The notes beneath the pieces are model-generated. The model did not search any database and was not told where the DNA came from. It saw nothing but the letters and a program-made list of their open reading frames with translations. A stretch of DNA of 35,182 bases from positions 1 through 35,182 of the forward strand of contig JAAYDW010000013.1 of assembly GCA_012729055.1 (NCBI GenBank), in the 5' to 3' direction. A program made the translations under genes and the position numbers. Each line of letters opens with the position of its first letter. Position 1 is the stretch's first letter. Source of the DNA: Deltaproteobacteria bacterium (GTDB lineage: Bacteria; Desulfobacterota; Syntrophia; Syntrophales; Smithellaceae). Of the stretch, positions 7,498-10,470 are shown in pieces.

Positions 7498-10470
7498 ATG
7501 GCTAAACGTGTTTACACTTTCGGGAAGGGCATCAATGAAGGCACTGCCGGCATGAAGACTCTTCTCGGCGGCAAGGGCGCCAACCTGGCCGAAATGTCGA
7601 ACCTGGGAATTCCCGTTCCTTCGGGATTCACGATCACCACCGATGTCTGCATTGAATTCTACAAAAACAACAAACAGCTCCCCGCCGTCCTCAGCAAAGA
7701 AGTGGAAGCCGCTCTCAAGAAAGTCGAAAAATCCATGGGCACAAGCTTCGGCGATCCGTCCAATCCTCTGCTCCTGTCCGTCCGCTCCGGCGCGCGCGTG
7801 TCCATGCCGGGCATGATGGACACGGTGCTCAATCTGGGCCTCAACGACGAAACCGTCGAAGGCATCATCCGCATCTCCGGCAACGAACGGTTCGGCTGGG
7901 ATTCCTACCGCCGTTTCGTCCAGATGTACGGCGACGTCGTCATGGGTCTCAAACCGGAAGACAAGGACGCGCACGATCCGTTTGAGGAAGTGATGGACGG
8001 CCTCAAGGCGGAAAAAGGCATCAAGGCCGATCTGGACATGACCGTCGGGGATTTGAAAGAACTCGTCGCCCGCTACAAAAAGCTCATTGTGGAGAAACTG
8101 GGCAAGGAATTTCCCACCGATCCCAAGGAGCAGCTCTGGGGCGCCATCGGCGCCGTTTTCATGTCCTGGAACACGGCGCGCGCCGTCTTGTACCGCCAGA
8201 TGAACGGCTTTGACGACAACTGGGGCACGGCCGTCAACGTGCAGGCCATGGTCTTCGGCAACCGCGGCGAAAGCTGCGCCACCGGCGTCGCCTTTACGCG
8301 CGACCCGGCCACCGGTGAAAACCTCTTCTACGGCGAATACCTGATCAACGCGCAGGGCGAGGACGTCGTCGCCGGCATCCGCACGCCGCAGCAGGTGACG
8401 CTGGAAGGCTCCCGCCGCTGGGCCAGGGACAACAACGTTTCCGAAGAGGAACGCGCGACAAAATATCCTTCGCTCGAGGAGTACATGCCCGCCGCCTACA
8501 AAGATCTGGTCAACGTTTACACCAAGCTCGAGCAGCACTACAAAGACATGCAGGATATCGAATTCACCATCCAGGACCAGAAGCTCTGGATGCTGCAGAC
8601 CCGCACGGGGAAGCGCACCGCCGCCGCCGCGGTCAAAATCGCGGTGGACATGGTCAACGAAAAACTCATCGACAAGAAGACGGCGCTTTTGCGCATCGAC
8701 CCCACATCGCTTGACCAGCTGCTCCATCCGACCTTCGATCCGGGCGCATCGCGCAACGTGGTCACCAAAGGGCTCCCCGCCTCCCCCGGCGCGGGAACCG
8801 GCCGCGTGGTCTTCAACGCGGATGACGCGGAAACCTGGAAAAAGCGCGGCGAAAAAGTCATTCTCGTGCGTATCGAAACCTCTCCGGAAGACCTCAAAGG
8901 CATGACGGCGGCGCAGGGCGTTCTGACCCAGCGCGGCGGCATGACCTCGCACGCGGCCGTTGTCGCCCGCGGCATGGGCAAGTGCTGCGTCTCGGGCTGT
9001 GGCGACATTGAAATCAGCTATGCCGGCAAGGAAATCAAATTTAAAAATGCCGTTGTCCGCGAAGGCGACTACATTTCGCTCGACGGCTCGACCGGCGAAG
9101 TCATGCTGGGCGAAGTAAAGACGGTACCGGCGGAACTGTCCGGCAACTTCGGCGTGATCATGCAGTGGGCCGACGAGATGAAAAAGCTCGGCATCCGCAC
9201 GAACGCCGACACGCCGCACGACGCGGCCGTCGCCCGCAACTTCGGCGCGCAGGGCATCGGCCTGTGCCGCACCGAACACATGTTCTTCGAAGGCGACCGC
9301 ATCAAGGCCGTGCGCGAGATGATTCTGGCCGACGACCTCGACGGCCGCAAGCGCGCCCTGGCCAAACTGCTCCCGATGCAGCGCGAGGACTTCTACGGCA
9401 TTCTCAAAGCGATGGAAGGCTACGGCGTCACCATCCGTCTGCTCGATCCGCCGCTGCATGAATTCGTTCCGCATGAAGAGGAAAGCCAGCAGGAAATGGC
9501 CCGCGAAATAGGCATCTCCATCGAGGCCGTCAAAGCCAAAGTGGCGTCGCTCCACGAATTCAACCCGATGCTGGGCCACCGCGGCTGCCGTCTGGGCATA
9601 TCCTTCCCGGAAATCACCGAAATGCAGGCCCGGGCCATCTTTGAAGCCGCCTGCCAGCTCGTGAAGGAAGGCGTGGACGCGAAACCCGAAGTCATGGTTC
9701 CGCTGGTCGGCACCGTGAAAGAGCTTGCCTCGCAGAAAGCCATCATCGTCGAGATCGCCCAAAAGGTGATGGAGGAAACAGGCGTGAAGGTCGCGTATTC
9801 CGTCGGCACGATGATCGAAGTGCCCCGGGCGGCCGTCACCGCCGACGAGATCGCCGCCGAGGCGGCCTTCTTCTCCTTCGGCACCAACGACCTCACACAG
9901 ATGACCTTCGGCTACAGCCGCGACGACGCCGGCAAGTTCCTGCCGGAATATGTGGCCAAGAAAATCCTGCCGGTGGATCCGTTCCGCGTGCTGGACCGCG
10001 ACGGCGTCGGCAAACTTGTCCGGATGGCCGTGGAAAAAGGCCGGAGCGTCAATCCGAAGCTGAAAGTCGGCATCTGCGGCGAACACGGCGGCGAGCCCAG
10101 CTCCATCGAATTCTGCCATCTGACCGGCCTCAACTACGTGAGCTGCTCTCCCTTCCGCGTGCCCATCGCAAGACTCGCCGCGGCACAGGCGGCGCTGAAA
10201 AATCCGCCCCCCGCAAAAAAAGCGACGGCCCAGGCGACAACGAAAGTGATGTCCAAAGCCAAGGAGATCGTGAAAACCGCTAAAGCGGTAAAGAAGGCTG
10301 TGGCGGCGGCGGTGAAGGCGGCGAAAGCCAAGCCGGCGGCCAAGAAAGCCGTTGTAAAGAAAGCGGCGGCGAAAAAAGCGCCGATCAAGAAGGCGGCCGT
10401 AAAGAAAGCGCCCGCCAAAAAAGCAGCGGTCAAAAAAGCGGCGGCGAAGAAAGCCGTAAAGAAGCAATAG
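7498..10470 (+). CDS. ppdK: Pyruvate, phosphate dikinase with Lys/Ala-rich histone-like C-terminal tail
   Basis: Catalyses the reversible conversion of pyruvate, ATP and phosphate to phosphoenolpyruvate, AMP and pyrophosphate. The start is the ATG at 7498, preceded by AAAGGAGA. The N-terminal ATP-grasp part begins [13 protein letters not shown] and has [10 protein letters not shown]. The swivelling phosphohistidine site is [22 protein letters not shown]. The PEP/pyruvate TIM-barrel contains [40 protein letters not shown] and the terminal [15 protein letters not shown] normal enzyme would end near residue 900 ([11 protein letters not shown]). Here about 84-90 further residues follow, almost only Lys, Ala, Val and Pro, with a 5-residue period KKAxx repeated about eight times at the very end (15-bp imperfect DNA repeats, about 10342-10464). 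Such tails are known from histone H1-like, AlgP/HupB-type DNA-binding proteins, not as a standard part of PPDK. The frame is continuous through the junction. Confidence 0.96.

Follow-up and report, generated by a model that had tools for sequence, protein, structure and literature searches.

The window, i.e. the whole stretch of 35,182 nucleotides analyzed here, encodes a pyruvate phosphate dikinase (PPDK) that continues beyond its normal C-terminus. The gene product is best read as a normal PPDK to whose C-terminal PEP/pyruvate domain an intrinsically disordered polycation has been added. Such a tail is present in every member of the genus with a readable PPDK C-terminus, and it is probably a real and functionally constrained part of the protein. 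A known enzyme is joined here to a known kind of tail, and it is the function of this tail that we infer. In the best reading, to which our analysis gives about an even chance, the tail would be a disordered polycation that anchors PPDK to nucleic acid.

The PPDK gene and its enzyme core

The coordinates of the features discussed are collected in Table 1. The open reading frame of the gene contains no internal stops. Its product matches the NCBIfam model TIGR01828 over residues 3-900 (model positions 2-865 of 865) with 1384 bits, which passes the curated equivalog cut-off of 843.45 and places the protein among the PPDKs. The Pfam domains PF01326 (PPDK_N), PF00391 (PEP-utilizers mobile domain), and PF02896 (PEP-utilizers_C) provide the ATP-binding, mobile phosphohistidine, and PEP-binding domains of the enzyme. 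A TSH motif lies at residues 483-485 in the mobile domain and a CGEHGG motif at residues 860-865 in PEP-utilizers_C, which completes the set of features expected of a PPDK. H485 and C860, the TSH histidine and the CGEHGG cysteine, which we take to be the catalytic residues, are invariant among the aligned PPDKs (sets of 17 and 18 sequences).

The solved PPDKs (TIGR01828; 1kbl, 1dik, 2x0s) share with the window protein the whole catalytic enzyme, the three Pfam domains, and both motifs. The 11 matching solved PPDKs are 873-913 residues long and none aligns past window residue 910, whereas the window protein has about 88 residues more. Ten of these 11 distinct sequences (E <= 1e-50) align only up to window residue 898 or 902, and 2x0s is the sole one that reaches residue 910. 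In the AlphaFold2 model, the core is folded up to about residue 901. The initial annotation had described a PPDK that ends near residue 900 and is followed in frame by a Lys/Ala tail; this holds, with a core to about residue 902 and a tail of 88 residues, and the coordinates proposed for the tail, 10200-10467, were right to within two codons. Its description as a histone H1-like tail on a normal PPDK is confirmed.

Table 1. Coordinates of the PPDK gene, the parts of its product, and adjacent signals in the window
Feature	Coordinates	Strand	Basis
PPDK gene with tail, 990 aa and TAG stop	7498..10470	+	ORF list, translation, TIGR01828 equivalog (1384 bits)
Shine-Dalgarno-like AAGGAG, 9 bases 5' of the ATG	7483..7488	+	sequence read directly
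PPDK enzyme core, residues 1-902	7498..10203	+	Pfam, invariant columns, solved structures, AlphaFold2 model
Lys/Ala tail, residues 903-990, net charge +29	10204..10467	+	composition; kept across the genus
Tail segment 1 (residues 907-943), rich in Lys and predicted to be helical	10216..10326	+	AlphaFold2, alignment, hydrophobic moment
Tail segment 2 (residues 944-990), predicted to be disordered, with KK at mostly 5-residue intervals	10327..10467	+	pLDDT, KK spacing, 15-bp period
Terminator-like hairpin, 18 pairs, T-run, starting 20 nt past the tail stop	10491..10534	+	fold z-score -5.66

The window protein has four matches in its own genome, three of them among the matches listed, and no second full PPDK was seen among those listed. 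These three are the PPDK gene itself, a 1413-residue protein that matches the N-terminal part at 40%, and a protein of PtsI type, a type inferred from its 602-residue open frame, that matches the C-terminal part of PPDK at 31%. The genome contains three PF00391 matches.

Other features of the window were observed in passing. Positions 19985-28017 hold genes for a bacterial alpha-2-macroglobulin (1906 aa) and then a penicillin-binding protein with a BiPBP_C domain, the usual yfhM/pbpC-type pair. A Tex-family protein encoded at 14509-16797 on the minus strand has a basic, proline-rich C-terminus that ends in KKK. A 7-bp tandem repeat, CCATCCA, occupies 35009-35081 (10.4 copies, 98% matches).

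Composition and anatomy of the tail

The 88 residues that follow the core comprise K30 A31 V10 P6 T4 Q2 I2 M1 S1 E1, i.e. 34% Lys, 35% Ala, and one acidic residue; the last 40 residues of the protein are 40% K with a net charge of +16. Tandem Repeats Finder detects a 15-bp period at 10334-10454 (8.1 copies, 67% matches), and seven of the ten steps from one KK to the next are exactly five residues long. The 'about eight KKAxx repeats' counted initially correspond to eight units. The 15-bp repeats proposed at the same time also stand; growth by very recent slippage is not well supported as their origin, because 81 of the 136 pairwise base differences among the eight units fall at third codon positions.

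Two known classes were considered for the tail and rejected. Bacterial H1-like nucleoprotein HC2 (PF07382) gave no match at E <= 1, either in the Pfam scan of the protein or in its own genome. The PASK (polyacidic, serine, lysine) motif is an acidic, serine-rich stretch around lysines, and the 88 tail residues include a single E and a single S.

The tail falls into two parts, a division absent from the initial annotation, of which the first is predicted to be helical and the second disordered (Table 1). The AlphaFold2 model, for which the window protein was aligned with 17 named PPDKs in an alignment without depth in the tail, gives the helix of segment 1 block pLDDT values of 43-67, a low to modest confidence, with values below 50 over residues 906-919; pLDDT is about 30-38 over residues of about 941-990.

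The predicted helix is central to one alternative, in which segment 1 would bind the anionic inner membrane and bring PPDK beside the membrane H+-pyrophosphatase, where the PPi that PPDK makes or uses would be exchanged locally with the proton gradient. The genome does contain one H_PPase match (E 2.2e-179), and among five tails the hydrophobic moment of segment 1 is above 95% of shuffles in two and above 83-90% in two more (shuffle fractions 0.013, 0.040, 0.103, and 0.167). Segment 1 of G010, however, lacks amphipathicity (shuffle fraction 0.88) and is replaced by KK repeats, and in G007 and G008 this segment is shorter; the polycation is never lost. In all five tails, the moment of the repeat part lies below most of its own shuffles. 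Moreover, I, L, M, and F number only 1-8 per tail, and nine of the 12 tails compared contain no aromatic residue. Placement at the membrane is therefore improbable. Since the helix and moment of segment 1 vary across the genus while the KK repeats persist, the polycation is the constant feature of the tail and the helix is optional.

With its short-period, Lys-rich, nearly acid-free repeats of predicted disorder, the tail is of the kind known from AlgP, PhaF, and TopA, a likeness in way of working, not in homology, that is limited by the predicted helicity of the first ~35 tail residues.

The tail as a genuine part of the gene

The PPDK C-terminus is present in 15 of the 20 genus genomes. The initial annotation had proposed to compare relatives for a recurring tail of varying length, and complete in-frame basic tails of 78-130 residues were indeed found in 12 of these 15 (G000, G002, G006, G007, G008, G009, G010, G011, G012, G014, G018, and G019). 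In G003 and G016 (loci L011, L012) the contig ends inside the tail, and in G013 the frame beyond an N gap is unreadable. Among the five genomes without a PPDK C-terminus, G004 and G017 hold N-terminal pieces of PPDK, and the best match in G001, G005, and G015 is only a 1100-1400-residue N-terminal relative. G015 is listed as 100% complete and has no PPDK match; this genus member may do without the enzyme, unless the search overlooked it.

Across the genus, charge and composition of the tail are kept, and length and repeat order vary. In a comparison of 12 tails (11 complete ones and the cut tail of G016, with G018 left out), lengths were 77-130 residues, K content 25-40%, acidic residues 0-2, and net charge +21 to +45. 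The junction reads P-[AV]-K-K in 12 of 12 tails, and the other two reading frames close within 0-30 and 5-77 residues. All 12 genus loci with downstream sequence have a G+C-rich hairpin and a T-run, the latter judged by eye, within 80 nt of the stop. The end of the tail is thus the natural end of the gene, since such a hairpin follows soon after the stop in every one of these loci. The hairpin of the window (10491-10534) was missing from the list of a terminator consensus scanner.

These data bear on the suspicion that a frameshift or an assembly error at the junction, as also raised initially, or a read-through could have created the tail. Repeats can be misassembled, and the two genus contigs cut inside the tail are in keeping with this; against it, complete in-frame tails occur in 12 different assemblies, each followed by a hairpin with a T-run, and there is no sign of such an error. 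Programmed frameshifting at the junction was considered for the in-phase A AAA AAA run at 10215-10221 and rejected, as this run occurs in one of the 12 tails, that of the own genome only; the A7 found at the junction of G010 lies in a different phase. Taken together, an artifact at the junction has a close to negligible probability. In-phase runs of 7-8 A are found deeper in the tails of G006, G010, G011, G012, and G014 without a position in common, so slippage inside the tail is possible, though with no conserved site.

Constraint on the tail sequence

Five pairs of tails were aligned as DNA; the pairs share no sequence, and 63 codons that differed at more than one base were excluded. Codons with a single difference comprised 106 synonymous and 38 nonsynonymous changes, and neutral change was rejected in four of the five pairs (p 3e-5 to 1e-15). 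The closest pair, G009/G007, is near-neutral (5 nonsynonymous and 2 synonymous changes, p = 0.6) and has a tail omega of 0.33 by protein-guided alignment. Lysine is preserved in 37 of the 44 single changes that affect K codons, and the others are three K/R, two K/Q, one K/T, and one K/E. This single K-to-E change among seven nonsynonymous K changes is not rarer than the neutral spectrum predicts among nonsynonymous changes; the constraint seen is the keeping of K at all, not a particular avoidance of E. By protein-guided alignment of the 14 closest pairs among those listed, omega was 0.07-0.33 in the tail vs 0.06-0.13 in the core, with two pairs saturated in the tail. The constraint figures are rough, because some of the five pairs do not join sisters on the tree, so that the pairs are not fully independent; repeat arrays are also hard to register, and misregistration can distort all of the estimates.

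Such figures can be set against the view of the tail as a tolerated by-product, i.e. a repeat-grown, soluble, disordered extension that would aid solubility or folding at most and has no specific partner. The variable length and order of the tails, their 15-bp repeats, and the near-neutral G009/G007 pair speak for this view. It is opposed by the strong synonymous excess in the other four pairs and by the occurrence of the tail in all 12 complete and both cut C-termini of the genus.

Distribution of basic C-terminal tails

Lysine-rich C-termini are not a general property of this genome. None of the other ORFs in two samples, of 345,567 bases (window included, 285 ORFs) and 200,000 bases (182 ORFs), has 30% or more K in its last 40 residues; the ORFs were called mechanically, so that some are not genes, and the 285-ORF sample lacks the PPDK itself, as the greedy picker chose the antisense ORF 7480-10467. 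By net charge alone other ORFs are also basic, with at least +10 over the last 40 residues in 5 of 285 and at least +12 in 1 of 182. In 200,000 bases of G032, 0 of 165 ORFs reached 30% K. A genome-wide habit of lysine tails was rejected on the ORF samples and on a query of the own genome with the tail, which matched only itself at E <= 1, a search in which low-complexity handling may hide other tails. Five HU/IHF matches were found in the own genome, none with a long tail (the open frames of four are 90-110 aa), so lysine tails are not the usual way in which this genome holds DNA.

Within the family, basic tails of 25-46 residues (net charge +8 to +17) occur in 11 of 11 genomes read of sister genus g2, and ends of 13-27 residues (+4 to +11) in 5 of 5 genomes read of sister genus g3; these counts cover the ends read and leave aside the matches in G446, G455, and G457 and that of the second G456 copy. 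The weakest g3 tail, that of G026 (13 residues, +4), is below the definition of a tail used on the tree. The g2 and g3 PPDKs are 53-55% identical to the window PPDK and form a separate lineage on the tree. It may be noted that two PPDK lineages (L004-L016, L018, and L035 vs L023-L031), 53-55% identical, occur inside one family.

The initial annotation had named absence from all close relatives, coupled with a lack of expression, as decisive against the tail; such absence is not seen, since the tail recurs throughout the genus, but tail-less relatives do exist. These are G028 of genus g7 in the same family, which shares 75% of residues 1-759 and 80% of residues 816-902 with the window protein, and L035, from a Spirochaetes MAG record, 75% identical. 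The window PPDK lineage groups with this g7 genome and the Spirochaetes MAG, which suggests gene transfer.

The PPDK tree contained 134 sequences; L019, which has no C-terminus, was dropped, and the genus loci L012, L017, and L033 as well as later loci were not given. On this tree the long basic tails (17 rows) require at least four changes, three of them forced by starred branches, although the stars come from a quick tree method and are less trustworthy. With shorter tails on the different PPDK lineage of g2 and g3 and on a few other bacteria, basic PPDK tails appear to have arisen several times. Among 80 named PPDKs, a diverse set without a close named relative, three have long basic tails (L067 from Candidatus Adiutrix, L112 from Phycisphaerae, and L113 from Planctomycetota) and six short ones. 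Five of 28 PPDKs from a phylum search have short basic tails. Of 20 further phylum loci, selected because their open frames were long, 19 had a readable end; one of these tails was long (L181, which is once more the gene from Adiutrix) and two were short (L169, L175). Genome G293, of the same phylum as the window genome, contains letters of the named record L067, which links this phylum to that of Candidatus Adiutrix, assigned by NCBI to Thermodesulfobacteriota. The initial statement that no standard PPDK has such a tail was therefore too strong. The Candidatus Adiutrix tail (L067, L181) is unlike that of the window, with ~155 residues, KAVKPAKADKP-type repeats, and 11 acidic residues. The Planctomycetes PPDKs L112 and L113 end in independent tails rich in Lys, 57 and 50 residues in length.

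PPDKs were also compared with neighbouring ORFs of the same loci, likewise called mechanically and not all genes; one of the 80 named PPDKs went unrecognized, leaving 79. In named species, a net charge of at least +6 over the last 20 residues was found in 8/79 PPDKs vs 17/357 neighbours (p 0.063), at least +10 over the last 40 in 6/79 vs 8/357 (p 0.026), and at least 10 K in the last 40 in 4/79 vs 3/357 (p 0.023). The corresponding counts in the phylum were 6/28 vs 3/43 (p 0.079), 4/28 vs 1/43 (p 0.075), and 3/28 vs 0/43 (p 0.057). Enrichment of basic C-termini on PPDK over its neighbours is thus modest, with six uncorrected tests at p 0.023-0.079.

For the by-product view, the tail-less G028 and L035 and the eight neighbouring ORFs of other bacteria that also reach +10 are favorable, whereas the repeated origin of the tails and the lack of any other such tail among the 467 ORFs sampled from the own genome are not. 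In sum, a tail of this inert kind is possible if rather unlikely.

Possible partners of the tail

Bacterial PPDK is a dimer joined through its C-terminal domain. An enzyme dimer would therefore carry two tails, which may add avidity. We propose that the tail acts as a non-specific electrostatic anchor on nucleoid DNA, or on ribosomal or other RNA, in the manner of the H1-like tails of AlgP, PhaF, and lysine-repeat TopA; the tethering to nucleoid or RNA suggested initially thus stays the favored reading. The anchor would set the site of PEP, ATP/AMP, and PPi interconversion and leave the chemistry unchanged.

Several precedents favor a nucleic-acid partner. AlgP (AlgR3) of Pseudomonas aeruginosa resembles the window protein in its disordered, Lys/Ala/Pro-rich C-terminal repeats of 4-5 residues and H1-like composition (PMC9239181); its units are KPAA, compared with KKAxx in the window, and N-terminal to its tail there is a helical domain in place of an enzyme. 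The AlgP tail was required for granule spacing, and AlgP apparently co-localised with the nucleoid region when polyphosphate kinases were lacking (PMC9239181). The phasin PhaF of Pseudomonas putida, too, combines a functional domain with a tail of 4-5-residue repeats, and its being disordered without ligands and oligomeric counts as a further likeness to the window PPDK (PMC3574117), but its cargo is a polyester granule, whereas the window tail has a soluble enzyme of metabolism as its cargo. In actinobacteria (Streptomyces, mycobacteria), TopA is, like the window protein, an enzyme with degenerate C-terminal lysine repeats; these have been likened to H1 and keep TopA on DNA (PMC7398561). TopA itself acts on DNA and PPDK does not. 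A survey of prokaryotic low-complexity regions tied the lysine-rich ones to DNA-binding proteins (PMC6821194). Finally, PykA of Bacillus subtilis, a PEP-handling protein with a PEP-utilizer domain homologous to that of PPDK, was reported to act on replication, although the accessible part of that report describes no lysine tail (PMC9009071), and no replication role was seen for PPDK. On these precedents, the chance that nucleic acid is the main partner of the tail can be put at roughly one half.

Polyphosphate, another target suggested initially, is the rival polyanion. Lys-rich segments have been reported to bind it non-covalently (PMC12077175), and AlgP is located on polyphosphate granules (PMC9239181). 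However, such granules are present with AlgP, while no polyphosphate kinase was found in the window genome. PPK1 was found in none of the 20 genus genomes, including this one, and PPK2 was not found in the own genome, to which the PPK2 search was confined; seven of 14 control genomes pass the cut-off in each search. The polyphosphate kinase expected alongside polyphosphate-targeted lysine proteins was thus not recovered as either PPK1 or PPK2, which removes the usual source of polyphosphate. The claim for this target was not upheld, and binding of polyphosphate by the tail is highly improbable.

The nucleic-acid anchor accordingly ranks first among the readings, an inert or solubility-only tail next, and then membrane placement near the H+-pyrophosphatase. 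A role of the tail in sensing or regulation beyond placement is doubtful. No lysine tail on a PPDK is evident from the titles and abstract openings in the literature searched, which is weak evidence of absence, as most subscription journals are outside its scope.

Conclusions

H1-like tails were already known on proteins that act on DNA and on those of storage granules; here, such a tail is held steadily, genus-wide, on a soluble metabolic enzyme. As no PPK1 was recognized in the genus, the case is also a warning that 'an enzyme with a lysine tail' need not imply polyphosphate. More speculatively, and with a low probability, PPDK may have become, convergently and on several occasions, an enzyme bound to the chromosome or to RNA through an H1-like tail, with the PEP/pyruvate and ATP/AMP/PPi balance being set or sensed at the nucleoid. 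A nucleoid-bound PPDK of this kind might then be, as an equally tentative suggestion, the counterpart to the reported link of pyruvate kinase with DNA replication. One family offers long-tailed, short-tailed, and tail-less PPDKs for direct comparison, and the steady tail of this genus, together with repeated gain elsewhere, would be a simple natural experiment on how metabolism is positioned within bacterial cells.
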